This document shows, in pieces, positions 18,477-31,276 of a stretch of DNA of 48,643 nucleotides (positions are counted from its first letter, which is position 1; each line of letters starts with the position of its first letter). Position numbers and translations under genes: made by a program. The stretch is taken from NCBI GenBank assembly GCA_902631265.1, contig CACOXX010000006.1, positions 1 to 48,643 on the forward strand, written 5' to 3'. The notes beneath the pieces are model-generated. The model had not been told where the DNA came from. It searched no databases and saw only the letters and a list, made by a program, of their open reading frames with translations. Source of the DNA: an uncultured Pelagibacteraceae bacterium. Lineage in GTDB: Bacteria; Pseudomonadota; Alphaproteobacteria; Pelagibacterales; Pelagibacteraceae.

Positions 18477-18869
18477 TGGTAAAAAATTTTTTATCCAAAA
18501 TATTAGCAAGGGATCTCAATGGTTTAAATATAATTTCTACATACTGTGAGGATTCAACCACAAGCGTTTCAGAGATTAAATATCTTAAAAAAAACAAAAT
18601 ATTTTTACTGTCTCTAACTCGAAAATCTCTTAAAGATAACAAAAAAAGCAACATTATAAGTGTTTGTAAATTTGAATTTATAGAAGATGTAGTAGCAAAA
18701 AAATATAGATCAAAAAGATGTTAACTTGAAATTAAAGTTGATAGGAATAGATCTAATGAAAATAGATAAACAATATGAAATTAATTTGTTATTTTCAGAT
18801 AATCGTTTTATAACCCTACGTTCTGAAATTATAGAAGTAACATTGGAGGATTTAAAAAAGAAAAAATAA
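18476..18869 (+). pseudogene. DUF2948 family gene with a +1 frameshift in an A7 tract
   Basis: The first 82 codons ('MVKNFLSKILARDLNGLNII') match the N-terminal half of the DUF2948 family and stop at 18724. Removing one A from the run of seven at 18697-18703 joins this to a second frame ('VVAKNIDQKDVNLKLKLIGI' to '[13 protein letters not shown]', stop 18867-18869), giving a near-complete family member. Position between murA and hisD is the standard one for DUF2948. Causes could be a sequencing or assembly error in the homopolymer, a real mutation, or polymerase/ribosome slippage on A7. The C-terminus also looks a few residues short. The function of the family is unknown to me. Confidence 0.8.
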
Positions 18870-20082
18870 ACTTCGATCAGATTACATTTCAGTAAAAAAA
18901 ATAATTAAAGATGTAAGGAAAAATGGAGACAAAGCCTTAGTAAAATATGAGAAAAGATTTAATAAAAATAAAACAATTATTTCGACCCCAAAAAAAATTA
19001 AAGACTCCATTAAATCCTTAGATCCAAAAGTAAAAAAAGCGATAGATGCAGCTTATAACAGAATTTATAGATTCCATTCACTTCAAAAGTTTAAAGATGT
19101 TTCATATATTGATAAATATCAAAATAAAGTGAAATATAAATATGTTCCACTTGAGTCAGTTGCGATCTACGTTCCAGGTTCAAAGGTTTCTTATCCATCC
19201 AGTGTTTTAATGTGTACAATTCCTGCAATCGTAGCAGGAGTTAAAAGAATTGTGATGATTAATCCTGGTTACAAGGGAAAGCAAAATGCTGCAGTTTTGT
19301 ACGCTGCAAGAAAATGCAAAATTAAAGAAATTTATTCAATTGGTGGTCCTTCAGCAATTGCAGCCGCTGCATATGGAACTAAATCAATTAAACCTGTGAA
19401 TAAAATTGTAGGACCAGGGAATTCGTATGTCGCTTCAGCAAAAAAAGAGGTCTTCGGGGATATAGGTATTGAGGCAATGACGGCTGGACCTTCAGAAGTT
19501 TTAGTTGTTTGTGACAATAAATCTAATCCAACATGGTTAGCAAGTGATCTAATTGCTCAAGCTGAACACGATTCTCTTGCACAGTGTATTTTAATTTCAA
19601 AAGATAAAAATATTCTAAACAAAACTAAGAATGAAATATTTAAACAACTTAAAGATATTTCAAGAAGCTCAATTGCAAAAAAAAGTTTAATAATGAATGG
19701 TATATTAATCTATGAAAAATCTGAAAAAAAAATTGTAGAAATAATTAACAAGGTGGGTCCAGAACACTTAGAACTAAATATAAAAAATTACAAATCTTTA
19801 ATACCAAAAATTAAGAATGCCGGTTCTATTTGCTTGGGAAAATATGCGGTGATGGCAATGACGGATTATGGAGTACCGGGCACCAATCATGTTCTTCCAA
19901 CAAATACGACCAGTAAATACTCAAGTGGATTAAGTGTTTCAGAGTTCATTAAAAAAATTTCATACATAAATTTATCAAAAAAGGGTATTGAATCTCTCGG
20001 TCCATCAGTTATAACTCTTGCAACTAATGAAGGTTTAGATGGACATGCTAAATCAATTAAAAAAAGATTAGGAGAATTATAA
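18856..20082 (+). CDS. hisD: Histidinol dehydrogenase, 5' end unclear or truncated
   Basis: This enzyme makes the last two oxidations of histidine synthesis with NAD+ and Zn2+. Conserved blocks: '[20 protein letters not shown]' at the start, '[20 protein letters not shown]', '[11 protein letters not shown]', '[14 protein letters not shown]' (zinc Gln/His), 'VGPEHLELN' (catalytic Glu-His) and '[10 protein letters not shown]' (zinc His). The frame is open from 18856, after a TAA at 18853, yet contains no ATG, GTG or TTG before GTG 19129, which would remove the conserved N-terminus. About 25 residues of a normal 430-residue HisD are missing. Either a rare start (ATT 18886) is used, or a deletion or assembly collapse in the A-rich junction with the DUF2948 gene removed the true start. 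The given left edge is the limit of the open frame, not a start codon. Confidence 0.85.
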
Positions 20083-20084
20083 AT

Positions 20085-20300
20085 TTGTCAAAACAAGACT
20101 CTTTAGAATTTAAAGGAAAGGTAATAGACCTTTTGCCCAATGCAATGTTTAGGGTCAAATTAGAAAATAATCACATTGTTACAGCGCATACAGCTGGAAA
20201 ATTAAGAAAAAACAGAATTAGAGTTTTGCAGGGAGACAATGTTACTGTAGAAGTAACTCCATATGATCTTACAAAGGGTCGTATAACATTTAGATTTTAA
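20085..20300 (+). CDS. infA: Translation initiation factor IF-1
   Basis: A 71-residue OB-fold protein that binds the A site of the 30S subunit during initiation. The sequence '[19 protein letters not shown]', '[19 protein letters not shown]' and '[12 protein letters not shown]' is the universal IF-1. The start is TTG at 20085, two bases after the hisD stop; the protein would otherwise begin inside the conserved fold. The murA-DUF2948-hisD-infA order is typical of the class. It is followed directly by tRNA-Phe. Confidence 0.97.
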
Positions 20301-20301
20301 T

Positions 20302-20376
20302 GGCCTTGTAGCTCAGTAGTAGAGCAGTACCCTGAAAAGGTATGTGTCGTTTGTGCGATTCAAACCAAGGCCACCA
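20302..20376 (+). tRNA. tRNA-Phe (GAA anticodon), CCA encoded
   Basis: A 75-nt cloverleaf with encoded CCA, starting 1 nt after infA. Acceptor GGCCTTG/CAAGGCC, D stem GCTC/GAGC, anticodon stem GTACC/GGTAT with loop CTGAAAA (anticodon GAA), variable GTGTC, T stem GTTTG/CAAAC. The D-loop is AGTAGTA (only one G of the usual GG) and the T-loop is TGCGATT, with G at position 55 where U (pseudouridine) is almost universal. Aligned to seven-base D-loops, position 18 is A, so an A18-G55 contact may replace G18-Psi55. The same combination occurs in the tRNA-His of this window. Confidence 0.95.
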
Positions 20377-20515
20377 TCCCCTTGAAACTTTGTCACTCCT
20401 CAATTATTTAGTGAATTTATCTTGCATTAACTTTCAAAATCATTTAACAACAACGCAACTAAGTTTACATAAGTTGATTTAGTTAAGTTAACAATAAGAA
20501 GAAAGAGTAAAAAGT
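20377..20515 (+). other. cspA leader region
   Basis: A 139-nt gap between tRNA-Phe and cspA. The stretch is A/T-rich with direct echoes of 'AAGTTTACATAAG' and 'TTAGTTAAGTTAAC', and a purine-rich AAGAAGAAAGAG just before the ATG that may act as a weak ribosome site. Cold-shock genes often have long structured leaders, but I see no strong hairpin or convincing -35/-10 pair here. Confidence 0.3.
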
Positions 20516-20731
20516 ATGAGTACAAAGTTAAAAGGAAAAGTTAAGTGGTTCAATGGTAAGAAGGGCTACGGCTTTATAGAAAGAGAAGATGGTGAAAAGG
20601 ACTGTTTCGTACATGCGAGCGCGGTCCGTGATGCCGGGCTTCGATTCCTTAATGAAAATGATCCCGTCGAGTTTGAGATCGAAAATGGTGAAAAAGGACC
20701 ATCTGCGATTAACATTAGCAAGACAAGTTAA
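20516..20731 (+). CDS. cspA: Cold-shock domain protein (CspA family)
   Basis: A 71-residue single-stranded nucleic-acid-binding protein that melts RNA structure. '[18 protein letters not shown]' contains RNP1 (K-G-Y-G-F-I) and '[10 protein letters not shown]' RNP2 (V/F-H). The remainder, '[20 protein letters not shown]', is typical of alphaproteobacterial CSPs. A patch in the middle (about 20600-20670) is richer in G and C than its surroundings, as often seen in highly expressed genes of low-GC genomes. It is monocistronic, bounded by tRNA genes on both sides. Confidence 0.96.
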
Positions 20732-20962
20732 TTTTTGTTAATATTTGTTTAGGGATACGTACCACTTAACAATAAGTATATTTATCCCTACTCAAACCCC
20801 TTGCATTTTAAGATTTAAGTGTTATCTACTTCACAATGACAAAAAAGTTTAATTTCTCTGTAAACTCAAAAAGACACCACGTTTTCCATGGTAGCTTCAC
20901 GCTATCAAATTAATCATATAAAAATTTAAATTTAATAATATTTAGTATAAAAGAAAGGATAC
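20732..20962 (+). other. Intergenic stretch between cspA and tRNA-His, with an inverted repeat
   Basis: The longest gene-poor stretch here (231 nt). An inverted repeat AGGGATA (20751-20757) and TATCCCT (20783-20789) encloses 25 nt and may form the 3' end of the cspA transcript; there is no T-run after it. Smaller palindromes lie near 20876-20905 (ACCA/TGGT, TAGC/GCTA). A 25-codon ORF at 20836-20913 shows no family resemblance. A small RNA is possible but not demonstrated; relatively G+C-rich bits suggest some constraint. Confidence 0.35.
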
Positions 20963-21036
20963 GCCCGATTGGTGTAGTAGAAGCACACGAACCTGTGGAG
21001 TTCGGGGGCCAGTTGCGAATACTGGATCGGGTACCA
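20963..21036 (+). tRNA. tRNA-His (GTG anticodon), without G-1, with A73
   Basis: A 74-nt cloverleaf with encoded CCA: acceptor GCCCGAT/ATCGGGT (G1-U72), D stem GTGT/GCAC, anticodon stem CGAAC/GTTCG with loop CTGTGGA (anticodon GTG), T stem CCAGT/ACTGG. The base before G1 is C, and position 73 is A, so the otherwise universal G-1:C73 pair of tRNA-His is absent, a known trait of many alphaproteobacteria. The D-loop AGTAGAA and T-loop TGCGAAT repeat the A18/G55 combination seen in tRNA-Phe. The gene ends 7 nt before hisS, so tRNA and synthetase may share a transcript. Confidence 0.95.
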
Positions 21037-21043
21037 AATTAAA

Positions 21044-22432
21044 ATGGAAAAAGAAAAAAGATTAATACCGGGCCTTCCTAAAGGATTTCAAGATAGGTGG
21101 GGTCAAACTTTATTTTTAAAAAAAGAGTTGTTAAGAATAATTGAGAAAAATTTTATAAAATTTGGATATAGTCCTTTAGAGACTAGTCCGATGCAACTAA
21201 GCTCAATAATTGGCAATACATTGTCAGAGGATGAAGAAAACCCAATGTCAGATATCTATGCATATTCTGATGATGGAACCAATGTTTCTCTTAGATATGA
21301 CTTATCTCAAGGTTTTTTAAACTTTTATAAACAAAACTATATGAATTTACCAAACCCAATAAAAAGATACGAAATTGGCACAGTTTTTAGGAGAGAGAAA
21401 CCAGGGAGTAATAGATATAAATCTTTCGATCAGTGTGATGTCGACGTAATTGGTAATTTTGATGCTAAACAAGCTAATGCAGATTTATGTTCTATTATTG
21501 GAAGTATTTTTACTGAGTTTCTTAAAAAATCAGAATTCGTAATCAATGTAAGTAATAGAAAAATAGTCCAAGGCTTAATGGATCAATTAAAAATTGTTGA
21601 TCAGAAACAAAAACAGAAAGTTTTACGGGCTATAGATAAACTCGACAAACCTGGGTTTGGTTTAAAAGGTGTTGAAGATTTATTAAAAAAAGAAAGGCGT
21701 GATAATAGTGGAGCAATTACCAAGGGTGCAGATTTAAATGATGAACAATCGACTAAAATCATAGAATTTTTAAAAATAAAAGATATTAAGCAACTTAAAC
21801 AAAAAATTGACAATCCAATTACAAACGAGGGGATTAAAGAAATTGAGGAGTTATTTGAAGTTTTGAGTTATGGAAAATATGCAGATCAGGTAAAATTTAA
21901 TAGCTCAATTGTTCGTGGGATGGATATGTACACAGGATGTGTAATTGAGACAAATTTGAAATTTGAAGTAAAAAATTCTAAGGGAAAAGTAATAGATCCA
22001 GGGGCTGTTTGTAGTGGTGGAGAATATTTAATCTCGAAATTTAAAGGAGATCCTTTTCGAGGAACTGGAATTTCTGTTGGGATAGATAGACTAGTCTTCT
22101 GTTTGTCGCAAAGAAATAATATTAAATATGAAGAAAAAAAACCGATATTAGTTTGTATGATAGAGGAGACAAAACAAGAAAACTATTATGAGATATTAAA
22201 CATTTTGAGGGAGAATAATATTAATTCAGAAATTTATTTAGAACCAAAAAAAAAACTCTCTAAACAACTTGAATTTGCTTCAAAAAGAGGTCTACCATTA
22301 GCTATTATTTGTGGTGATAACGAATTTAAAGATAATACCATTACTCTTAAAAATCTCCAAGGTATTAAAGGAGAAAACCAAATTACTATCCCTAGAGAAG
22401 ATTTAATCAATGAAGTTAAAAAATATATCTAA
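21044..22432 (+). CDS. hisS: Histidyl-tRNA synthetase
   Basis: A 462-residue class II synthetase. Motif 2 region 'YEIGTVFRREKPGSNRYKSF' and 'QCDVDVIG' with the preceding 'SLRYDLSQGFLNFY' mark HisRS; 'VRGMDMYTGCVIE' is the HisA-type substrate block and 'GTGISVGIDRLVFCL' motif 3. The C-terminal anticodon-binding domain ends 'IKGENQITIPREDLINEV'. Length and segment order fit the alphaproteobacterial HisRS lineage that has coevolved with tRNA-His lacking G-1. Expected Gln-x-Asp and 'R-x-R-Y-x-Q' elements are present in modified form ('R-R-E-K' and 'NRYKSFDQCD'). hisZ starts inside its last 23 nt. Confidence 0.95.
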   Translation: MEKEKRLIPGLPKGFQDRWGQTLFLKKELLRIIEKNFIKFGYSPLETSPMQLSSIIGNTLSEDEENPMSDIYAYSDDGTNVSLRYDLSQGFLNFYKQNYMNLPNPIKRYEIGTVFRREKPGSNRYKSFDQCDVDVIGNFDAKQANADLCSIIGSIFTEFLKKSEFVINVSNRKIVQGLMDQLKIVDQKQKQKVLRAIDKLDKPGFGLKGVEDLLKKERRDNSGAITKGADLNDEQSTKIIEFLKIKDIKQLKQKIDNPITNEGIKEIEELFEVLSYGKYADQVKFNSSIVRGMDMYTGCVIETNLKFEVKNSKGKVIDPGAVCSGGEYLISKFKGDPFRGTGISVGIDRLVFCLSQRNNIKYEEKKPILVCMIEETKQENYYEILNILRENNINSEIYLEPKKKLSKQLEFASKRGLPLAIICGDNEFKDNTITLKNLQGIKGENQITIPREDLINEVKKYI

Positions 22433-23450
22433 TATTCTAAAATTAAGCGGATTTAAGAATATTGAGCTTGATAGCATTATAGAGTCTAATCAAGTTTTAA
22501 AAAGATCTGGTGGAAATTTTAGACAGTATTTATTCTCTTTTTATGATCAAAATTATAAAGAATGGACCTTAATTCCTGATCTCTCATTGGCTAGTGTAAA
22601 AAAATACATTGAAAAAAAAACTAATAAAAAAACAAAATGGTCATACATTGGTGAAGCATATCGTAAAAGAGACAAAAGCAATAAATCACCTATTATAAAG
22701 CAGTTAGGATACGAAATTTTTGGCTCTTATAACAAAGCCAAAGATGATAATGAAATTGTACAAACATCTTTAAAAATATTTAGAAAATCAAATTTTAAAA
22801 GGTGTGAGGTAAATTTAAGCAACATGGAAATATTTCACGTCCTTGTTGATAAACTTTCATTACCACTTAGATGGCGAGAAAAGATTAAAAGACATTTTTC
22901 TAGGAAAGAATATTTTGAGGAATTATTAAAAAAACTATCAGATGATAAAGATATAAATCCCAAAATAGTTGAAGCTGATAAGAGATTAGCTGAAAATTTA
23001 AAGAAAAAAAATTTGCATAAAACTTACTCAGGACGAAATTTAGCAGATATTTTAAGCAGATTTGATCTGAAAAATTATAGGGATGTGCGTGGCAAGTCTA
23101 ATAAAAGAGATATAAAAATTATTAGAGAATATTTAAAAATTTCATGCCCAATTGAGAAAGCACCACGGATTTTATCAGATTTTTTTTATAAATATAATAT
23201 GAATATTTATATTAGTCCTGATTATTTTCCTATTAAAAAAAATAATATTAAAAATGTAAAAGTTTTATTTACCAGTAACATAAATAGAACTTTAGAATAC
23301 TATACTGGAATGAATTTTAATTTAACAGTAGATGTAAAGAAAAAGAGGCATATTCTTTTGAGCGGAGGGAGATTCGATAAATTAATTAAAGACCTCGGTT
23401 ATAAAAATATTCCAGCAGTAGGAGCTGCATTAAATTCAGACATTTTATGA
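22410..23450 (+). CDS. hisZ: ATP phosphoribosyltransferase regulatory subunit
   Basis: A 346-residue HisRS-like protein lacking the anticodon domain. HisZ forms a hetero-octamer with short HisG and gives it histidine feedback. 'FRQYLFSFYDQNYKEWTLIP', 'DLSLASVKKYIEK', 'WSYIGEAYRKR' and 'QLGYEIFGS' are the degenerate synthetase-like motifs typical of alphaproteobacterial HisZ; 'RTLEYYTGMNFNLTV' and 'LLSGGRFDKLIKDLG' follow. It overlaps hisS by 23 nt and hisG by 4 nt. The presence of a short HisG supports HisZ rather than a second synthetase. Confidence 0.92.
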   Translation: MKLKNISNILKLSGFKNIELDSIIESNQVLKRSGGNFRQYLFSFYDQNYKEWTLIPDLSLASVKKYIEKKTNKKTKWSYIGEAYRKRDKSNKSPIIKQLGYEIFGSYNKAKDDNEIVQTSLKIFRKSNFKRCEVNLSNMEIFHVLVDKLSLPLRWREKIKRHFSRKEYFEELLKKLSDDKDINPKIVEADKRLAENLKKKNLHKTYSGRNLADILSRFDLKNYRDVRGKSNKRDIKIIREYLKISCPIEKAPRILSDFFYKYNMNIYISPDYFPIKKNNIKNVKVLFTSNINRTLEYYTGMNFNLTVDVKKKRHILLSGGRFDKLIKDLGYKNIPAVGAALNSDIL

Positions 23451-24130
23451 GAAAAGAAAAAATAAATATTTTAATACAATCCAAAGGAAGAATGGCGGCT
23501 GACGTAGAAAAAATATTCAAAAAAAATAATCTTAAAATTTTAAAAAAAAAAGAAAGGTCTTTAATTGGATATGTTAAAGGCTATCCTAACATAAATATAT
23601 TATTTATGAACACATCTGAGATATGTGAGGCCTTGGCTAAAAATGTGGGTGATATTGGCATAAGTGGAAAAGATTTATGGAAAGAAAGTGAGCCAAGTGT
23701 TCAATCAAAAATTTCTCTTGCTAAAGAATATAGTTTTGGCAAAAGTTCGCTAGTTGTCGCTGTAGATAAATTTTGGTTAGATTGTGTAAACTCTGGAGAT
23801 CTAGAAGATATTTCTTATGAATTTTATCAAAAAAAAAAAAGATTAATGAGAGTAGCAACTAAATTTAAAAATTTAACTCGTGAGTGGTTTGCTTCTAAAG
23901 GTATCACTCAATATGAAATAATAAACTCTAAGGGAGCTACTGAAGGTACGATTGCAGCTGAAATTTCTGACATGTGTACAGATCTAACATCCTCTGGTGA
24001 AACATTAAGACAAAACAACCTGAAAATTATTGGAACGATTCTCGAGTCATCTGCTTGCTTGTTCTACTCAAAAAAGTCGTTGAAAAAAAAAGGTGTAAAA
24101 AAAATATTAAAATTACTTTCTAAAAATTAA
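23447..24130 (+). CDS. hisG: ATP phosphoribosyltransferase, short form
   Basis: A 227-residue catalytic subunit for the first step of histidine synthesis (ATP plus PRPP). 'ILIQSKGRMAADVEKIFKK' is the N-terminal block, 'DIGISGKDLW' the substrate site, 'RVATKFKNLTREWFASKGI' the family signature, and the PRPP loop is 'GATEGTIAAEISDMCTDLTS', close to the usual E-x-A-P-x-x-G-x-A-D-x-I-x-D-x-V-x-T-G. The ACT regulatory domain of long HisG is absent, consistent with neighbouring hisZ. Its end overlaps a small minus-strand ORF. Confidence 0.95.
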   Translation: MRKEKINILIQSKGRMAADVEKIFKKNNLKILKKKERSLIGYVKGYPNINILFMNTSEICEALAKNVGDIGISGKDLWKESEPSVQSKISLAKEYSFGKSSLVVAVDKFWLDCVNSGDLEDISYEFYQKKKRLMRVATKFKNLTREWFASKGITQYEIINSKGATEGTIAAEISDMCTDLTSSGETLRQNNLKIIGTILESSACLFYSKKSLKKKGVKKILKLLSKN

Positions 24131-24238
24131 GTCCATAAGGTAAATAATAATTATTCTTATAACATCTAAATTTCTTAGAAAAGCAAAGATAGCCAATAGA
24201 AAAATACTTAATAAAAAAATCATTATCAAAAATTCCAT
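24113..24238 (-). CDS. Putative 41-residue single-pass membrane peptide
   Basis: A 41-codon ORF beginning 'MEFLIMIFLLSIFLLAIFAF', almost wholly one hydrophobic helix, then a short polar stretch and a second weakly hydrophobic segment. Its ATG lies 1 nt after the stop of the upstream minus-strand gene, a coupling distance like the rest of that operon, and it would be the operon's last gene. It overlaps hisG's 3' end by 18 nt. Tiny membrane peptides are often effectors or stabilisers, but no function can be assigned. It could be a chance frame. Confidence 0.4.
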   Translation of the reverse strand: MEFLIMIFLLSIFLLAIFAFLRNLDVIRIIIIYLMDLIFRK

Positions 24239-24239
24239 T

Positions 24240-24746
24240 TTATTTTAGTTTTTCCTCAGCTAGACGAATATAATCTGCTGTTCCAGACTTATTATCATCC
24301 TTTCGATCATTTAATTCTTTATTGATTATATATTGCGCTTCAATCTTTGAGTTTCCATCTTTTAACAACTTCACAGCTCTATTAATTTTTTTCTTGAAAG
24401 CTTGCTTTTTTTCTTTTGAAACGGCTTCTTTGTCTATTCCAAATTTAACACCCACTTTATGAATATTAGGATTTCTAGTGTTACCTATCATGTCTTTCTT
24501 TTTTTTTTCCTTTAAATAGATTGTTAATTTATGTCTTTCCTCAAGGGCTTTTTTCGCTTCATTTTTACTTGCGTAATACTGAACACCTTGAAATTTTTTT
24601 GGAATATTTGTTTTTGATTTTGGAGGGGGTTTATAAAAAACAATTTTAAATTTTGCATCTTTTGGTGCTTTTTTTTTATTAGGATAATCTACAAAATCAA
24701 ATTTAGACACCTCTCTGATGATGTTTAAGATTACTTCTTTTCCCAT
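24240..24746 (-). CDS. Lysine-rich protein of accessory operon, unknown function
   Basis: A 168-residue, strongly basic protein. The middle has 'FQGVQYYASKNEAKKALEER', which resembles the Arm/AP2-like DNA-binding segment found at the N-terminus of some integrases (weak inference), followed by highly charged helices and 'IRLAEEKLK' at the end. No catalytic motif is seen. The start overlaps the upstream gene by 16 nt and the stop abuts the small membrane ORF. Likely a nucleic-acid-binding partner of the nucleases in this operon, judged only from charge and context. Confidence 0.6.
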   Translation of the reverse strand: MGKEVILNIIREVSKFDFVDYPNKKKAPKDAKFKIVFYKPPPKSKTNIPKKFQGVQYYASKNEAKKALEERHKLTIYLKEKKKKDMIGNTRNPNIHKVGVKFGIDKEAVSKEKKQAFKKKINRAVKLLKDGNSKIEAQYIINKELNDRKDDNKSGTADYIRLAEEKLK

Positions 24747-25243
24747 AAACTTTTAAATATCTTAATTTTGTTATTGGTGACATTTTTAAATACCCAAACT
24801 TTTCTTTTATGTATAATTTGCTCAAAGTGGATATCAGATTCCTCTAAACATTTTATAAAATGCATTCCTTTTTTTTTTCGCCCAACTCCTCTTTTATCAC
24901 CCTCATTAATTGGTAAGACTGCTCTTTTTAATAACATGCTAATATACTCTTTTCCCCCTAAACCAGTTTTTTTTCCAAATTCCTCAGTACTTGTATGTTC
25001 TGGATCTAATGATGAGTCATTTTTATGTTCGTAGTTTCCTTTACCTATAAAATTATTTTTTTTTATAATCTTTAATTCTTCAATAGATTTTGCAAAAAAT
25101 TCATGGGGTTTCCCATTTTTTCTTCCTTTCCAGAACCATAGATTTTCTGTTGATTTATAATAAAACCCATCTTTGGTATAAGATTTAAATTCTTTTACTT
25201 CATCATTTATTATGAATGCCTTCCTTCTTTGATAGTTCTTCAT
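24731..25243 (-). CDS. Unknown protein of accessory operon
   Basis: A 170-residue basic protein. The N-terminal half has a compact aromatic patch ('DGFYYKSTENLWFWKGRKNG') that may form a small beta-rich nucleic-acid or ligand-binding fold; the second half has 'EEFGKKTGLGGKEYISMLLK', plausibly a helix-turn-helix-like segment, followed by 'GVGRKKKGMHFIKCLEES'. I do not recognise the family. It overlaps both neighbours (16 nt downstream and 4 nt upstream), so it is made from the same transcript as the PD-(D/E)XK nuclease. Confidence 0.65.
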   Translation of the reverse strand: MKNYQRRKAFIINDEVKEFKSYTKDGFYYKSTENLWFWKGRKNGKPHEFFAKSIEELKIIKKNNFIGKGNYEHKNDSSLDPEHTSTEEFGKKTGLGGKEYISMLLKRAVLPINEGDKRGVGRKKKGMHFIKCLEESDIHFEQIIHKRKVWVFKNVTNNKIKIFKSLWEKK

Positions 25244-25941
25244 ATACTCTTACTAATTAATTGGTGATAATGTTCAACTCTTTCCAAAGCTTCTTTTTGT
25301 AGATCCATAAACTCTTGACCTTCTATCTCAAATTTTTGAAAAATAAGATTTGGTGTACACATTAAAATTACACTTGATTGAATTTTTGTTCCATGAATTT
25401 CGTTATGTGCAATCGCATATAGAATACATTGAGTAAAATAATTTCGTATCGAACTATATTCTCGTTTTGCAGGAGAGTTCTTCTGCTTGAAATCACAGAT
25501 CTGCAATTTATTTTCTTGAGTACTTATAAGAGCATCCATAGTACCTGCATATTTGTATTTTAAGGAATAAACACATTCCTCACTGGCATAGACTTCTTTT
25601 ACGTAATCATTTAATCCATGTGAAATAATTGTTTCTGCCATTTTTTTTGGTAAATTTACTTCCTCAATAAGTTCACCATTCATTTTACCCATCAACATTT
25701 CTGAAAGGTAGCCATGCATAAGTGTGCCACGATTTGAAGACTCTTTTAAAATAATTTCGCTATCTTTATTTTCTCTTTTCCATTTTTCTAAAGCTTCTTT
25801 TTCTTCAGTTTTTTTTGTCATGGATATAATATTTGTAACTGAGGGCAATCTCTCCCCATCAACTAAATAATGCCTTGATCCATTATAAATAGACCTAGTA
25901 GATTTCGGATAAGTAAATTTATTGTTAATACTCCATTTCAT
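25240..25941 (-). CDS. PD-(D/E)XK superfamily nuclease (RecB/phage exonuclease-like)
   Basis: A 233-residue protein with the ordered catalytic elements of this superfamily: 'RLPSVTNIISMTK' (the S-V-T-x-I opening of phage-type exonucleases), His76 in 'RGTLMHGYLS', Glu121/122, Asp136 in 'KYAGTMDALIS', Asp150-Phe-Lys152 in 'LQICDFKQ' and Gln171 in 'YFTQCILYAIAHNE'. This matches RecB-family and viral exonucleases that process DNA ends in recombination. It lies between the ExoI-like gene's small partner (3 nt away) and a basic unknown protein. Similar exonucleases occur in marine podoviruses infecting SAR11, so phage ancestry is possible. Confidence 0.85.
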   Translation of the reverse strand: MKWSINNKFTYPKSTRSIYNGSRHYLVDGERLPSVTNIISMTKKTEEKEALEKWKRENKDSEIILKESSNRGTLMHGYLSEMLMGKMNGELIEEVNLPKKMAETIISHGLNDYVKEVYASEECVYSLKYKYAGTMDALISTQENKLQICDFKQKNSPAKREYSSIRNYFTQCILYAIAHNEIHGTKIQSSVILMCTPNLIFQKFEIEGQEFMDLQKEALERVEHYHQLISKSI

Positions 25942-25944
25942 GAG

Positions 25945-26145
25945 TTATTTGATAGTTTTATCAATTACAATTATACCATTATCTTCTGAGTGTTTGATGA
26001 CTGGTTTTTTGTTTGAGGAAAATATTCTTAGTATATTTTGATTTTCATTTTCAGATTTTATTAAAACAAAGTATTTAGATCCTGGTTTATGCATTGTTTG
26101 TTCTTGAATTTCTATTTCTAACTTTTTTACTTTTAAGATTGCCAT
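25945..26145 (-). CDS. Small protein between two nuclease genes, unknown
   Basis: A 66-residue mixed-charge protein beginning 'MAILKVKKLEIEIQEQTMHK'. Alternating hydrophobic and charged residues predict beta strands ('YFVLIKSENENQNILRIFSS', 'NGIIVIDKTIK'). It starts 1 nt after the ExoI-like gene stops and ends 3 nt before the PD-(D/E)XK gene starts. Its position between two nucleases suggests a subunit, inhibitor or adaptor, but sequence gives no direct clue. Confidence 0.6.
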   Translation of the reverse strand: MAILKVKKLEIEIQEQTMHKPGSKYFVLIKSENENQNILRIFSSNKKPVIKHSEDNGIIVIDKTIK

Positions 26146-26146
26146 T

Positions 26147-27592
26147 TTATTTTAAAAATTTTTCGTGATCTTTTGCAACAATATCTAAATGTGCGTTTAT
26201 ATTCTCTAATATTTCAAGTTTTTTCGTATCATCTTTATTTTGATCTCTTAAGGTATCAATTCTTTCCATTGCCTCTGGAATAGTTGGAAAAGCCTCTTTA
26301 TTTGTTGAAAGCAATCTCCTGCTTATAGTTGATCTAACTGTCTTATATTCAGCATCTGTAAAACCGTCTTTACCGTACTTGTCTAATAAAGCCATATCAG
26401 ACAAATGTTTTATAGGTCCTGTAAACTTTTTGTGAATTTTAAATTGTTCTTCTTGATTACTCCAAACATATCTGTCCATTAATGATTTTTCCTCAGGGGA
26501 AGGTTTTAAAGAAAATATCATTTGCTCAGGTTCTAAGGGCGTTTGATCAATGTTATCTTCTTGAAATTTATAACTAATAATTTTGCAAAGTCTTACAGCA
26601 ATTTTATCTCTATTTTTTCTTATAAATTCAGCTCTACTTTTTAATGTTTGATCACCTAGTTTTGAATATTCATCATTAAAATTTGTAGCAATATTTTTTT
26701 CCATAATTAAAGGGTTTTTCTTAGCTTTAATTGTACGATATTTTTTTGGGGGTGAATTTAAAACCTTATCAAGAACTGTATCAGATGTTTCTTGAAAAAA
26801 TTTTTCCCAATCATGTTTTAAATCAGCAACTAGATAGTAACTTTTATAAATAGGGTGTTCGCATATAAAGCTTGAAACAAAATTTCTTGTGCGACCAAAA
26901 AAAGTTTCCGGGTGGCAAAAATAATCTTCATTTTTCATTTTTGTTACAACATCATTTGGATCAGTAAAATTTGTAACTTTTTCAAAGAACTTCGGATGTT
27001 TTTTTTTTAATAAAGTAAAAAGCTTGATACAGCCGTGCGTATCTCCGGAGGCTGTATGGCTCGCTTTTCCGATGTCGAAACCATTCATTCTACAGATGCT
27101 CGAGAGTTTGTAGATTTTGTTACCCTTTGAATTTAATTCAGTAGCAATCATATTAGGTTGATAAAAATCGAAGTTTTGAACAATTGGAAGTGAATCTAAT
27201 TTTTTTGCGTTACCAGACCCAAAAATCCATGGCCAAGTAAAAAGATTAGCGAACAGATGCTGAGAAAAAAGCATATAATCAAATTGTTCACCATTATGTG
27301 CAACAAATTTAACAGGTCCTTTGGCTATCCAAGATTTAAGTTTGTCATAAGTTTTTTTTGTTAGATCAAAATTAGAATTTTCATATTTGTCAACGTCAAA
27401 TGGATTCAAGCCGTTGACTAAAAAACTATCAATTTCATAAATTCTTGACTTTCTTAGACGCGCTGTGCAATTAAATTCCTCAATAACATTGAAATTAGAG
27501 TCGCAAAGAATAGCACATATATCTAAAATACTAGCAGTCATTCTACCACTATCTGTTTCTGTATCTAGGAAAATATAATTCGTTTTAGACAC
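26147..27592 (-). CDS. sbcB: DEDDh 3'-5' exonuclease, exonuclease I (SbcB)-like
   Basis: A 481-residue protein, close to the E. coli ExoI length (475). The exonuclease core is complete: Exo I 'YIFLDTETDS' (Asp10, Glu12), Exo II 'FVAHNGEQFDYML' (Asn100, Asp105), Exo III 'SHTASGDTHGCIKLF' (His179, Asp184), the DEDDh arrangement. The C-terminal 250 residues carry an SH3-like and helical extension resembling ExoI ('RLCKIISYKFQEDN', 'YGKDGFTDAEYKTV'). ExoI degrades single-stranded DNA 3'-5' and helps in mismatch repair and recombination. It lies 1 nt from its upstream and downstream genes, inside the accessory operon rather than alone as in enterobacteria. Confidence 0.9.
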   Translation of the reverse strand: MSKTNYIFLDTETDSGRMTASILDICAILCDSNFNVIEEFNCTARLRKSRIYEIDSFLVNGLNPFDVDKYENSNFDLTKKTYDKLKSWIAKGPVKFVAHNGEQFDYMLFSQHLFANLFTWPWIFGSGNAKKLDSLPIVQNFDFYQPNMIATELNSKGNKIYKLSSICRMNGFDIGKASHTASGDTHGCIKLFTLLKKKHPKFFEKVTNFTDPNDVVTKMKNEDYFCHPETFFGRTRNFVSSFICEHPIYKSYYLVADLKHDWEKFFQETSDTVLDKVLNSPPKKYRTIKAKKNPLIMEKNIATNFNDEYSKLGDQTLKSRAEFIRKNRDKIAVRLCKIISYKFQEDNIDQTPLEPEQMIFSLKPSPEEKSLMDRYVWSNQEEQFKIHKKFTGPIKHLSDMALLDKYGKDGFTDAEYKTVRSTISRRLLSTNKEAFPTIPEAMERIDTLRDQNKDDTKKLEILENINAHLDIVAKDHEKFLK

Positions 27593-28726
27593 TTAAGCTA
27601 TTTCTTTCTTGTCTGTTTCTAAAAATTCTTTTGATAAAAATAAATTTGGTTCTGACATATTATGTTTAAGAAATTCAATATCTTTAAAATTATTTGATCT
27701 CCATACAACTTCTCCATAAATCATAGGAAGTAATTCAAAAAAATCTATTTCATCGTCCCTATATTTTTTATTATCTGAAATAATATGGACCACTGTTTTC
27801 TTTGGTAATTCAAGAAATTGAAGTCTTCTAATGCTTATCTTACCTTTTAAATTAAGTGCATAAATTCCGTTCTTAAAGGCTACTTCATTAATTTTTTTGT
27901 TATGAAATTTAATAATTAAAGCAAGATCTCCAAAATTTATTGTTCCCTGCATATTATCCTCTGTTACATTAAACAAGATAAGATCATCATATTTATTTAA
28001 ATCTAAATTTCTTTTTACAAAATCTTTTGAGAATAATATTTTTTCATCAGAATTGACTACTGGTAGTCTAAAAGTTTCATTAGGCGCAATAAAATTAGGC
28101 ATATACTTTTTTCTCAATATTTCTAAATGGGGGTAAAAATTTTTTAAAGACTCAATTAATATTTTTGAATTAACAGATTTTATGGCCTCAGAAACACTCT
28201 CTCTCACTATGCCATTTATGTCTTCCTCATCTGTTGGTTCCCAATTTTCGTACTCTTCAAGATATTCCCTTACACCTGGTATCATTTCGTCGATATACTC
28301 TTCCAAAAAATTTTTTTCATCGTGAATAAATCGACTATTAGACAGCTTAATTAAAATCGAACAGTGATGTTCAAGACATGGCAATATTAGTTTATTTTTA
28401 ACATCCAAATTTTCATATTTATTTAAAATTTTGTGAAAGCTATTTTTTTCTATTTTTGTAAAATCCTCCAAGTAAGCATACTTTTTTGATTTACTACGAC
28501 TATTATCGGGAAGTGGTTTATGACTAGCGATGGCATTCAAAAAAAAATATGAAAAGCTAGCTGGAAATGATGGAGAAGAGTATTTATAAAGGTAACTGTC
28601 CAGACTGTTTTTATGATTAAACAAATATGGCTTACATTGAAATTTAGAAATTTGGGCAGATTTTAACATTTTTAGCAATAATTCCGCAGAAGCCTTGTTA
28701 AATGCATTTTTTTTAGGACGTTTCAT
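27593..28726 (-). CDS. LexA/CI-like S24 protein lacking the catalytic Ser and Lys
   Basis: A 377-residue protein; first gene of the minus-strand accessory operon. Residues about 250-345 follow the S24 (LexA/phage CI) fold: 'ILFNVTEDNMQGTINFGDLA' aligns with V-x-G-D-S-M-x-P-T-L-x-x-G-D, 'NGIYALNLKGKISIRRLQFL' with D-G-I-Y-x-x-x-x-x-x-x-x-V-K-R-L, then 'VVHIISDNKKY' and 'IYGEVVWRS'. The nucleophile Ser is Asn258 and the Lys is Arg300, so self-cleavage should be lost. The N-terminal 250 residues show no clear helix-turn-helix, have an acidic stretch near 160-170 and are unfamiliar. It could be a non-cleavable regulator, or a sensor reusing the fold. Confidence 0.75.
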   Translation of the reverse strand: MKRPKKNAFNKASAELLLKMLKSAQISKFQCKPYLFNHKNSLDSYLYKYSSPSFPASFSYFFLNAIASHKPLPDNSRSKSKKYAYLEDFTKIEKNSFHKILNKYENLDVKNKLILPCLEHHCSILIKLSNSRFIHDEKNFLEEYIDEMIPGVREYLEEYENWEPTDEEDINGIVRESVSEAIKSVNSKILIESLKNFYPHLEILRKKYMPNFIAPNETFRLPVVNSDEKILFSKDFVKRNLDLNKYDDLILFNVTEDNMQGTINFGDLALIIKFHNKKINEVAFKNGIYALNLKGKISIRRLQFLELPKKTVVHIISDNKKYRDDEIDFFELLPMIYGEVVWRSNNFKDIEFLKHNMSEPNLFLSKEFLETDKKEIA

Positions 28727-28783
28727 ACTATATATATATACTTCTTATTCCTTTAATCAAGATAAAAAAAACATTTTTTTTAC

Positions 28784-28811
28784 TTGACTTTCCAGTATAT
28801 AATATTATATT
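28784..28811 (+). promoter_or_regulatory. Predicted sigma70-type promoter for the plus-strand accessory genes
   Basis: TTGACT (28784-28789) and TATATT (28806-28811) are separated by 16 nt, a good match to the housekeeping consensus. Transcription would start near 28818 and run through the long hairpin at 28831-28893 into the gene at 28907. In this A/T-rich genome -10-like words are common, so the match rests mainly on the -35 element. Confidence 0.5.
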
Positions 28812-28830
28812 AGAAACAATGTTAATATTA

Positions 28831-28893
28831 ATTGAAATGCTAGGTCCTATCCTTTCTTTCTATAACCTTCATGTTAAGGGCCTAGCTTTCAAT
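28831..28893 (+). promoter_or_regulatory. Long leader hairpin upstream of the gene at 28907
   Basis: The arms ATTGAAATGCTAGGTCC (28831-28847) and GGGCCTAGCTTTCAAT (28878-28893) pair over 16 positions with one bulged T and one G-U, enclosing a pyrimidine-rich 30-nt loop. It lies between the predicted promoter and the start codon, so it should form in the 5' leader. Its free energy must be well above chance in such an A/T-rich region. It may be an RNA switch, an attenuator or a protein-binding site. A 26-codon frame (28837-28917) starts inside the left arm and overlaps the next start codon, so a leader peptide is possible. Confidence 0.6.
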
Positions 28894-28906
28894 TTTAAAG
28901 GGAATT

Positions 28907-29236
28907 ATGAAAGATAGATATTTTTATGCTTTAAGCGATTGTCTCGCACGAAGAAAAGAATGGGTGAGGGATGTAGAAATTTTTTTTAGATTTAGAGAAT
29001 TAAGAGAAAAAGCCGAAAAAGAAACATTTAAAAACAATCTTATAATTTATTTAATTTATAAAACAATAAATTTACCAACTAATTTTTTAAATTTCCTCTC
29101 TAAGATAAGACAATACTCTGAGTATAACAAAACTTTAGCAGAGATTAAAGTCATCAGCCTGGAAATGAGCAAATATAACAAACCCCAAATAACCAATAGG
29201 AGTGAAAACAATGCCGAAAATAAAAAAGATACGTAA
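28907..29236 (+). CDS. Unknown protein, first gene of plus-strand accessory set
   Basis: A 109-residue basic protein, 'MKDRYFYALSDCLARRKEWV' and onward, predicted helical, with a moderately hydrophobic 'NNLIIYLIYKTINLP' segment in the middle. No known family. A GGGA motif lies about 4 nt before the ATG. The long leader hairpin precedes it. Its end overlaps the next gene by 26 nt in a different frame. It may be membrane-associated, but this is uncertain. Confidence 0.6.
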   Translation: MKDRYFYALSDCLARRKEWVRDVEIFFRFRELREKAEKETFKNNLIIYLIYKTINLPTNFLNFLSKIRQYSEYNKTLAEIKVISLEMSKYNKPQITNRSENNAENKKDT

Positions 29237-29594
29237 GAAAAAAAGTAAAAAACTTTCTAACGTTGTTCCGCTTAGGAAAGATCTTAAGCTTATTGAAAAA
29301 GATGAGCCTATATTAAGTGTTGAGGAACAGGAAAGAGAAAAAACAAATGCCTTTGCTAGAAAGATTTGTGATGAAATTGATAATTTCATAAAAGAAACTA
29401 AACTTACGGCTGATTATGCTTATTATCATTTTTTATTTCATTTAAAGCAGAGAACAATTTTTAATGTTTCTTATCCTCTATTTAAAGAGGCTAATGATGC
29501 TTCAACTAATGAAATAACCAGAAACTTGGCTAATTATTTAAAAGATAAATGTCCTGAACTTAAAACTGACACTGACAACCATACTATAAACTAG
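29211..29594 (+). CDS. Unknown basic protein upstream of rmuC
   Basis: A 127-residue protein starting 'MPKIKKIRKKKSKKLSNVVP'. An AGGAG at 29198-29202 lies 8 nt before ATG 29211 and fixes this start; an in-frame GTG at 29202 overlaps the AGGAG itself and is unlikely. After a very basic tail-like N-terminus comes a helical region 'FARKICDEIDNFIKETKLTA' and 'YYHFLFHLKQRTIF'. I recognise no family. It precedes rmuC by 12 nt and is probably cotranscribed with it. Confidence 0.65.
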   Translation: MPKIKKIRKKKSKKLSNVVPLRKDLKLIEKDEPILSVEEQEREKTNAFARKICDEIDNFIKETKLTADYAYYHFLFHLKQRTIFNVSYPLFKEANDASTNEITRNLANYLKDKCPELKTDTDNHTIN

Positions 29595-29606
29595 AAAGGA
29601 AAATAA

Positions 29607-30800
29607 ATGAACATATTTCACATTTTAATAACTGTAGTTATAACATCTGCTGCATGGTTAATTTACATTAAGTTTTTTTATAAGAGAGATAATTTCTCTG
29701 AAAAAGAAGCTTTGAGAATAAAAGACGACCAAATAAAAGATAAAGACCATGAGATTGAAAAAATTAAAATAGCTCATGATAGTGAAATTAAACTTTTAAA
29801 CGAAAAATATGCAAGTGTTGAAAAAATAAAAGAAAATTTAGAAGATACACTGTCCACAGAAAGAGCAAATTCTAAAACTACTCTTTCAACTTTGAAAAAT
29901 GTTGAAACATTTAAAAATACTGTCACTAAGAATATGCAAGACAATACAGACAAGATGCAAAAACAACAAGAATTTATCGATAAACTTACTGGCAATGCCA
30001 AATATCAAGGAAATTTTGGAGAAAAGTTTTTAGAACAATCCTTGCAGTTTCATGGATTTAAAGAGAAGGTTGATTACACAAAACAAAAAAAGGAAGAGGT
30101 ATATAACCTTGATAAAGACAATATTGAAGGTAGTAATCCCGATATATATATAAATTTAACCGGAGAAAATTATATAGTTTGTGACTCAAAGGTTTCTCTT
30201 GATAACTGGAGAAAATTTTGTAACGCAGAAAATGAACAAGAAAAAGACAGTGAATTTAAAAAACATGCAAACAGTGTAAAGAAACACATCGATACACTTT
30301 CAAAAAAAGACTACATGAAAAATGTTAATAAGAAAGTTTTTTCAAAAGTCATAATGTACATGTGTCATGAAGCTTCATATTTAGCTGCATTGGAACATTT
30401 CCCAGATCTCTATGAATATGCTTACAAAAAAAATATATTACTTGTGGGTCCAAAAAATTTGTTTGCAATTATTTCAATTATTCAAACAATTCAAGATAAA
30501 GAAAAACAAATAAAAGGTGTCAAAACTATTACAGACCTGGCTACAAATTTAATGGATAAATATTCATTAGTTAAATCCCACCTCATTAAAACAATGTCCA
30601 GTTTTAACGCTCATGGAAAAAACCTTCAAAATGTTATTAAAGGTACATGGCAAGGGCAGGGAAGCTTGGAGCAAAGAATTACAAAACTGCAAGACCAAGG
30701 GATAAATCCAAAAAATCCAATTCCTAAAACCAACGAAATTGAAGACCAATTAATGAGGTTTGAGGGAAATGATGAGCCAGAGAATAAAGATTTAAACTAA
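29607..30800 (+). CDS. rmuC: DNA recombination protein RmuC
   Basis: A 397-residue RmuC-family protein, linked by family knowledge to limiting DNA inversions and in some contexts to defence or genome stability. Residues about 4-22 form a membrane anchor, then a long coiled coil (about 30-130), then the RmuC nuclease-like core: 'GNAKYQGNFGEKFLEQSLQF' and 'NPDIYINLTGENYIVCDSKV' (D and D-S-K matching the restriction-endonuclease-like fold), 'SKVIMYMCHEASYLAALEHF' and 'ILLVGPKNLFAIISIIQTI'. AAGGA precedes the ATG at 8 nt. It ends 82 nt before trxA. Alphaproteobacteria often have addA before trxA; here this accessory block occupies that place. Confidence 0.92.
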   Translation: MNIFHILITVVITSAAWLIYIKFFYKRDNFSEKEALRIKDDQIKDKDHEIEKIKIAHDSEIKLLNEKYASVEKIKENLEDTLSTERANSKTTLSTLKNVETFKNTVTKNMQDNTDKMQKQQEFIDKLTGNAKYQGNFGEKFLEQSLQFHGFKEKVDYTKQKKEEVYNLDKDNIEGSNPDIYINLTGENYIVCDSKVSLDNWRKFCNAENEQEKDSEFKKHANSVKKHIDTLSKKDYMKNVNKKVFSKVIMYMCHEASYLAALEHFPDLYEYAYKKNILLVGPKNLFAIISIIQTIQDKEKQIKGVKTITDLATNLMDKYSLVKSHLIKTMSSFNAHGKNLQNVIKGTWQGQGSLEQRITKLQDQGINPKNPIPKTNEIEDQLMRFEGNDEPENKDLN

Positions 30801-30882
30801 AATTAAATTCAAAGTTGTTTTATATTATATAAAAGTACAATTTTAGTGTTGATTTCTAAGTCATACTTTTTTATAAAAAAAA

Positions 30883-31276
30883 ATGCCAACAATAAACATA
30901 ACAGATGAGAATTTTGATGGAGAAGTCCTTAAGAACAGTAAGCCTGTTCTCGTGGACTTCTGGTAGCCCTTAGGGGCTACAATTAAAATGCGCTGAATGG
31001 TGTGGTCCTTGTAAACAAATCGGACCAATTTTAGAAGAAATTTCAAATGAAATGCCCGATGTGGTCATTGCAAAACATAACATAGATTCGGAGCCTAACG
31101 TCCCGACTCGGTACGGCGTGCGTGGGCGCTGGCGCCCCAATCTTTAAGATTGGGGCGACCAGTTTTAAATTGGAATTCCTACTATGTTATTATTTAAAGA
31201 TGGTGAACTAAAAGCTACAAAAGTTGGCGCGACTACTAAATCTAATATTGTCTCTTGGATTAAAGAAAATACTTAA
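30883..31276 (+). CDS. trxA: Thioredoxin, interrupted by two short palindromic inserts
   Basis: Three segments, 30883-30963 (27 codons), 30992-31126 (45) and 31175-31276 (33 plus stop), join to a perfect 105-residue thioredoxin: 'VLVDFW' then '[14 protein letters not shown]' with the redox Cys pair, then 'YGVRG' and '[18 protein letters not shown]' with the cis-Pro. No residue is missing or extra. Between them lie 28 and 48 nt that cannot be read through: TAG follows the first Trp codon at once and shifts the frame, and the second holds an in-frame TAA at 31145. The gene sits in its ancestral place beside folC, with which it converges over 4 nt. Twelve codons before insert 2 (31091-31126) are unusually G+C-rich for this genome. 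Whether a full protein is made is unknown: bypassing, splicing, decay and artefact are all possible. Confidence 0.85.
30964..30991 (+). repeat. 28-nt palindromic insert 1 in trxA
   Basis: The insert begins with TAG, a stop directly after TGG (Trp27), which is also the 5' arm of a hairpin: TAGCCC (30964-30969), loop TTAG, GGGCTA (30974-30979), extended by G30963-C30980. A 3' tail CAATTAAAATGC of 12 nt, A/T-rich, ends at Ala28 (GCT 30992). Boundaries are unique if the family sequence W-A-E-W-C is kept; 28 is not a multiple of three. There is no target duplication. It lies immediately before the active-site codons. Confidence 0.8.
31127..31174 (+). repeat. 48-nt palindromic insert 2 in trxA
   Basis: The insert lies between GGG (Gly72, 31124-31126) and ATT (Ile73, 31175). 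Its core is a 12-bp palindrome, CGCCCCAATCTT (31133-31144) with AAGATTGGGGCG (31146-31157), extended by TGG/CCA around a bulged A. An alternative hairpin GGGCG/CGCCC with loop CTGG (31124-31137) includes the Gly codon. The tail AGTTTTAAATTGGA ends in GGA, also a Gly codon, so either GGG or GGA may be the retained codon; the length is 48 nt in all cases. An in-frame TAA (31145) lies in the palindrome centre. Confidence 0.8.

Follow-up and report, generated by a model that had tools for sequence, protein, structure and literature searches.

The thioredoxin gene trxA of an uncultured Pelagibacteraceae bacterium is interrupted by two short hairpin inserts, and programmed translational bypassing of these and related inserts is, judged from the sequences, their best explanation, with a probability of roughly 0.7. 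The DNA stretch analysed here (48,643 nucleotides, henceforth called the window) carries both inserts within a single otherwise conserved gene. By sequence comparison, they are members of a family of hairpin elements in conserved Pelagibacter genes, for which 29 alleles with 26 distinct sequences of 28–53 nt were collected from 11 sites in four genes, i.e., trxA, infA, a nuclease gene, and an exonuclease gene (sites A and A' lie one codon apart, likewise B and B', and all four are counted within the 11).

The interrupted trxA gene of the window

Joining of the three exons (30883–30963, 30992–31126, and 31175–31276) yielded a thioredoxin of 105 aa free of any further lesion, as a preliminary description of this DNA had claimed for the removal of 28 nt (30964–30991) and 48 nt (31127–31174); both lengths and positions held. 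Its statements that both inserts carry hairpins and in-frame stops and that the cuts lie beside the WCGPC active site and the cis-Pro loop were likewise borne out; TAG stands directly after TGG in insert 1, the first in-frame stop of insert 2 is TAA at its codon 7, and the junctions are DFW/AEW and RG/IPT. The DNA of intact relatives has the same two junctions and the same folC–accD synteny. All features are listed in Table 1.

Table 1. Positions of trxA, its inserts, and the intact homologues of other interrupted genes in the window
Feature	Position	Strand	Remark
infA (IF-1)	20085..20300	+	intact in window
Phage-type exonuclease-family gene (PHROG 298)	25240..25941	-	intact in window
Exonuclease I-like gene	26147..27592	-	intact in window
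trxA segment 1, 27 aa	30883..30963	+	matches intact relatives
Predicted take-off codon TGG (Trp27)	30961..30963	+	final codon of segment 1
Insert 1 (site A), 28 nt, hairpin and tail	30964..30991	+	AATTAAAATGC
Insert 1 hairpin, stem 7 bp, loop 4 nt	30963..30980	+	folding
In-frame TAG of insert 1	30964..30966	+	abuts take-off codon TGG
Predicted landing triplet TGC	30989..30991	+	final three bases of insert 1
trxA segment 2, AEWCGPC...RYGVRG	30992..31126	+	
Predicted take-off codon GGG (Gly72)	31124..31126	+	
Insert 2 (site E), 48 nt, long hairpin and tail	31127..31174	+	TTTTAAATTGGA
Insert 2 hairpin, -28.1 kcal/mol	31128..31163	+	folding
In-frame TAA, first in-frame stop of insert 2	31145..31147	+	insert codon 7
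Predicted landing triplet GGA	31172..31174	+	end of insert 2
trxA segment 3, IPTMLLF...KENT and stop	31175..31276	+	

Folding energies were -9.9 kcal/mol (z -2.36) for insert 1 and -28.1 kcal/mol (z -6.77) for insert 2, in host DNA with a GC content of 29%. GC-rich hairpins as strong as these are scarce in the own genome, where by the criterion applied 11 were detected in 437 kb, against 6, 1, and 3 in three shuffles; as two of these 11 are the trxA insert hairpins, the latter are more than chance would give. When 648 open reading frames, taken from parts of three relatives with redundancy among the three, were compared with the same 437 kb, 259 were matched, and trxA was the only one split by hairpin inserts. 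A second intact trxA of the same type was not found in the own assembly (43 contigs, 72% complete), which contains two other thioredoxin-fold matches, weaker and distant. Insert 1 occurs identically in L216, with one difference in L223, and as a 29-nt variant in L146, and insert 2 has a 49-nt relative in L220. Upstream of trxA the gene order varies, as the window has rmuC at 29607–30800 (the upstream sequence of G093 looks similar) and loci of the same genus, such as L005 to L007, have the exonuclease gene there.

Several further observations were made in the window. At 18473–18860, a gene with open frames of 136–139 aa in relatives is broken, close to an A7 run (~18697), into two frames that overlap; this split was rejected as an insert case, being a frame change without a hairpin, and is attributable to sequencing error, decay, or frameshifting. 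The adjacent frame (~18890–20082), which we take to be histidinol-dehydrogenase-like, extends upstream of its first standard start (19129), with no obvious ATG, GTG, or TTG at the expected start. Two adjacent frames at 24240–25243 (168 and 170 aa), beside the nuclease gene, had no match in Pfam, PHROG, or NCBIfam.

Recurrence, anatomy, and spread of the inserts

Across 399 Pelagibacter genomes, trxA was split by inserts in at least nine, counting that of the window; among the matches listed, 337 of these genomes were represented, many only by more distant thioredoxins. A hairpin pattern search identified interrupted infA genes in three genomes (one of them interrupted twice), a covariance model added two more (G247 and G298), and 297 genomes of the order, when searched, contributed a further infA case and two further cases in trxA. 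In four genomes with inserts, screening of ~390 kb (297 gene places) added one more gene, of the phage-type exonuclease family. In total, the inserts were recovered from 22 genomes (counted as loci, with two coinciding genome pairs merged). The interruptions of infA lie at GKLR/KNR and/or LQG/DNV (L224, L225, L229, L514, L456, and L457), those of the exonuclease I-like gene at WSNIG/FDDE (L152/L218 and L179), and that of the PHROG 298 gene was found in G182 (L505). All 11 matches of covariance model R1 at ≥40 bits in 300 genomes were located in trxA or infA, nine of them being sequences used to build the model and two, G247 and G298, being new; among matches from 35 bits down, the six inspected (L458 to L463) showed no insert in a gene. 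In the 297 genomes of the order, the covariance model returned G513, G557, and G558 as new and genic matches, and the match in G588 (33 bits, another genus) was not an insert.

A FolC-guided scan of named genomes covered 80 loci, with an insert-bearing trxA in six and no trxA interruption in 74, one of which (L181) is cut by a contig end. The exonuclease gene was interrupted in one of the six insert-bearing loci and in one of the 74 others. Two of seven named insert-bearing records are titled MAG, and genomes with AG names are presumably single-cell genomes. The best 120 TrxA relatives from 5.8 billion proteins reached at most 86% identity, and FolC had 23 clusters at 90–94%; by itself, this ceiling shows only an unusual trxA allele. 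The idea that the absence of intact TrxA above 86% reflects interruption of the whole clade was wrong, as sister genomes with 92–95% identical FolC carry intact TrxA at 84–86%. A search with the middle trxA fragment retrieved truncated thioredoxins from ENA and JGI contigs (P0241 to P0244 and P0299) that enter site E inserts of other sequence. The same search retrieved a 93-aa protein of an ENA contig (P0289), which reads through trxA inserts A and D and has Q where L223 and genomic relatives have TAG, perhaps owing to a gene caller with a code reading TAG as glutamine. In another predicted protein (P0001, 175 aa, 870-bp ENA contig), two near-complete thioredoxins are fused head to tail.

The infA, nuclease, exonuclease I-like, and trxA families all lie within ~11 kb in the own genome (window 20085–31276), and G182 has three inserts between ~C1:55110 and 59730. 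Scans of 437 kb of the own genome and ~390 kb of four relatives gave no inserts outside the infA–trxA neighbourhood. Several leads were followed and discarded. A tail-motif search in the own genome produced 18 matches versus one in the reversed control, and the 12 inspected folded only weakly (-1.4 to -8.3 kcal/mol), none of them with a hairpin resembling those of the inserts. The pattern TAGCCCC...GGGGCTA was present in three of 399 genomes; the match in G182 is in infA, and those in G024 and G137 are intergenic hairpins, not gene inserts. A split candidate in L096 was discarded because the query runs through a tRNA gene, and L497 and L511 at 13.8 kb contained no hairpin insert. Loss of ribosomal protein L9 as an enabling change showed no pattern, with L9 detected in 14 of 17 genomes and not found in the incomplete assemblies of G000, G243, and G119.

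Every insert consists of a hairpin and an A/T-rich tail in sense orientation. The hairpin begins at, or within a few bases of, the insert start, next to the take-off codon, and in the tail the junction is commonly preceded directly by a run of TTAAA or TAAAA. Insert lengths (28, 29, 38, 43, and 46–53 nt) include all three residues (0, 1, and 2) modulo 3; hence, the inserts are not simply translated. In 18 of the 26 distinct inserts, the first in-frame stop comes at codon 1 or 2, and the site E insert of L220 has no in-frame stop. The boundaries have no conserved bases and no splice-site-like 3'-end sequence common across sites. When 11 inserts (infA plus trxA sites B, C, and D) were aligned by structure, 98.6% of cells paired and both partners had changed in 8 of the 13 helix pairs; the covariation score of 0.52 compares with 0.18 after shuffling (0/500 as high; the shuffles ignore relatedness) and at most 0.13 for slid structures. 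In the insert of L222 the TAG is gone and the opposite hairpin arm has changed to compensate (CTTG...CAAG where relatives read CTAG...CTAG), and infA of G247 and G298 has CTAA...TTAG where others read CTAG...CTAG. These paired changes indicate that the helix is kept even when its stop codon is lost.

At 28 of 28 positions, insert A of the window matches that of G345, and the FolC proteins of the two genomes share 63% identity; such identical inserts in distant species indicate horizontal movement. Over codons 8–27, upstream of the insert, nucleotide identity was 90–100% in the four pairs sharing insert A versus 63–90% in six non-sharing pairs. Downstream of site A, codons 28–48 gave no clear difference (82–97% in sharing pairs versus 67–97%), and over codons 49–73 the sharing pairs dropped to 53–71%. 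Codons 74–83 show no difference in the pair with insert E in common (67–80% identity in non-sharing pairs), and L222 and L223, which share insert D, are 87–90% identical over codons 64–83 versus 57–67% before. Insert spread resembles a transfer in which the flanks are co-converted, as happens in homing, though the tracts are short. A homing endonuclease was not recognised in the scanned window genes between hisG and trxA (Pfam, PHROGs, NCBIfam). A viral source of the inserts was dropped, as the best thioredoxin in phage records is 54% identical and viral contigs contained no exact insert patterns; in the loci checked from a broader viral hairpin scan, no trxA lay by a hairpin, the one distant thioredoxin (L277) being far from it.

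Probable bypassing and competing explanations

The preliminary description had left the choice between bypassing and RNA removal undivided. Recurrence, covariation, continuous proteins, and selection lend support to this pair of readings, and the sequences favour bypassing within it, because early stops occur in 18 of 26 inserts, all inserts are ≤53 nt, landing and take-off agree at two or three positions in 18 of 19 pairs, and common 3' ends are lacking. We infer a hop, tRNA re-pairing, and a role of stop and hairpin as follows. The ribosome would reach the take-off codon (TGG or GGG in the window), where the peptidyl-tRNA would detach; the insert hairpin would refold as the ribosome slides across the gap; the tRNA would re-pair with the final insert triplet (TGC or GGA); and decoding would restart at the codon after the landing triplet.

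Of 19 distinct site/codon pairs, 18 have a landing triplet that agrees with the take-off codon at two or three positions when wobble at the third position is accepted. A permutation over the 11 sites, which treats them as independent, gave p = 0.00034; for the five non-glycine sites alone, 10 of 120 permutations were as good, i.e., the agreement there is weak. In the site-B allele of L219 the two agree at one base only, and in L220 the middle base of the pair is mismatched. For insert 1, the preliminary description had regarded TGG and TGC as an incomplete match; the match is indeed not full, two of three bases agree, and this is common across the insert family. The GG...GG agreement at glycine sites could reflect boundary placement or a short target duplication. 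The codons upstream of inserts are similar within insert groups, a similarity that co-transfer would also give.

The main rival to bypassing is RNA excision, in which a putative endonuclease and ligase would cut the hairpin from the mRNA and rejoin the ends before or during translation, in the manner of a mini-intron. It accounts for the exact protein junctions, the arbitrary lengths, and the sense-oriented covarying hairpin, and under it early stops need not matter (as in L220 site E and L222 site D). However, boundary bases are not conserved across sites, a match to an Rfam intron is absent from the window, and excision gives no reason for the agreement of landing and take-off or for stops clustered in codons 1–2. 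We consider it unlikely.

That palindromic insertions destroyed trxA, infA, and the other genes, the cells using other proteins or representing dying lineages, would be in line with frames broken by stops and frame changes, yet the evidence makes this very improbable. The protein is continuous after insert removal in all 24 interrupted gene copies (trxA 15/15, infA 6/6, exonuclease 2/2, nuclease 1/1), without other lesions, and the hairpin helices covary. L156 and L157, with an identical insert, differ by seven synonymous and two replacement codons (dN/dS 0.10), and the infA genes L456 and L457 (G247 and G298), with an identical 50-nt insert, by six synonymous and no replacement codons; codon comparison shows these two close pairs to be under purifying selection. 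More distant pairs sharing an insert site had ratios of 0.04 (L156/L217) and 0.06 (infA L224/L225) at a dS near 1, where part of the divergence may predate the insert, as it may in the other insert-sharing pairs (dS near 1 or more). Furthermore, the only infA found in G077, G129, G182, G247, and G298 is the interrupted copy (assemblies 52–88% complete, with a second infA possible elsewhere). The relaxed selection and further lesions expected of pseudogenes were not seen in the sequences.

Even less probable is a split thioredoxin, whose fragments would be translated separately from internal starts and then assemble. Positions 30977 to 31144 form an open middle frame, but it has no ATG, GTG, or TTG between 30977 and the conserved start at 30992, the cuts adjoin the WCGPC active site and the cis-Pro loop, and the same solution would be needed alike at 11 different cuts in four genes. 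An assembly or amplification artefact making hairpins is the least credible of these explanations: chimeric hairpins occur in amplified DNA and the own assembly is fragmented (43 contigs) and 72% complete, but the same 28-nt insert recurs base for base in two genomes with 63% identical FolC, the ENA and JGI proteins (P0241 to P0244 and P0299) enter site E inserts, and sites and junctions recur. Assembly error, like a pseudogene, is disfavoured as far as sequence allows. Self-splicing introns, which are far longer than 28–29 nt (a group I/II core takes hundreds of nt, the inserts 28–53 nt) and of which no Rfam match was found in the window, where matches at the gathering threshold were to tRNA only, and inteins, given that most alleles have internal stops and lengths indivisible by 3, were rejected.

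Beyond bypassing itself, we lean towards a wider reading in which SAR11 chromosomes host horizontally moving minimal ribosome-bypass elements, spread by homing-like gene conversion into the codons of highly conserved residues. Each such element would comprise a single hairpin, in most cases containing its own stop, and a landing tail, and would reside in trxA, infA, and neighbouring nuclease genes. If this reading is true, ribosomes of a bacterial group that is among the most abundant in the ocean would routinely hop 28–53 nt, at times twice per mRNA. The 26 distinct inserts at 11 sites, together with empty-site alleles in sister species, would form a natural library that makes testable the minimal take-off and landing needs, the driver (stop, hairpin, or peptide), and the mode of spread. 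Gene callers shorten conserved SAR11 proteins at insert sites, e.g., P0241 to P0244.

Comparison with known bypassing systems

Programmed bypassing so far rests on one well-studied phage gene and yeast mitochondria, and these two, T4 gene 60 and the Magnusiomyces byps, had rightly been chosen as analogues in the preliminary description. Among open-licence papers, none were found on SAR11 or Pelagibacter with translational bypassing or ribosome hopping, and among the papers listed, those on Pelagibacter or thioredoxin did not mention ribosomal bypassing, and those on hairpins, insertions, and infA did not mention Pelagibacter.

In T4 gene 60, the ribosome is described as leaving a GGA next to UAG in a take-off stem-loop, sliding 50 nt, and re-pairing at GGA (PMC11194080, PMC5009743). 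Sliding is reported to be processive up to 56 nt, with a small A-site hairpin as part of the stalled state (PMC11194080); all 26 distinct inserts fit this range, as each is <56 nt. T4 gene 60 reads GGA TAGCC TTCG GGCTATC and lands at ATTGGA; insert 1 reads TGG TAGCCC TTAG GGGCTAC, and insert 2 lands at ATTGGA after GGG. The likeness to T4 comprises, for insert 1, a UAG after the take-off codon inside a TAGCC...GGCTA stem and, for insert 2, a landing GGA within the same ATTGGA tail, across gaps below 56 nt. Two coding segments split by a gap that give one conserved protein (on sequence) and a take-off stem-loop are also present as in T4. A stop directly 3' of the take-off codon occurs in insert 1, but that of insert 2 comes only at codon 7, and 18 of the 26 distinct inserts have one at codon 1 or 2. 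T4 gene 60 is a single phage gene with matched GGA/GGA codons, an upstream stem-loop, and a nascent-peptide signal, whereas the inserts lie in four cellular genes, have several take-off codons and often imperfect landing triplets, and are as short as 28 nt. The T4 insert may have protected against a homing nuclease (PMC5009743). The similar flanking coding tracts of inserts at sites A, A', D, and E recall such homing; in contrast to T4, the window genes scanned held no recognised homing endonuclease.

The byps of Magnusiomyces (and Saprochaete) mitochondria are many short skipped blocks in essential genes, with imperfect take-off and landing codons for which two-out-of-three pairing is discussed (PMC5009743). 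They occupy 81 positions in one genome and are seemingly independent of mRNA context in that account (PMC5009743). Both systems comprise mobile inserts of tens of nt in several conserved genes of one lineage, here four genes and 11 sites. The mobility of byp elements is reportedly treated by Nosek 2015. Unlike the mitochondrial byps, the Pelagibacter inserts are chromosomal, number one to three found per genome, and have strong GC-rich covarying hairpins in 29% GC DNA. The Prevotella loescheii adhesin, with a claimed 29-nt hop given in PMC5009743 as a single case that was not followed up, is similar in being a cellular bacterial gene with a gap size close to that of insert 1, but it is without the family, covariation, and spread of the Pelagibacter inserts.

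By analogy, the insert system would work like T4 gene 60 and the byps, descent from either being a separate matter. Apparently new are the cellular bacterial host, the presence in several conserved genes (infA among them), the short hairpin as a self-contained element, and the horizontal spread.
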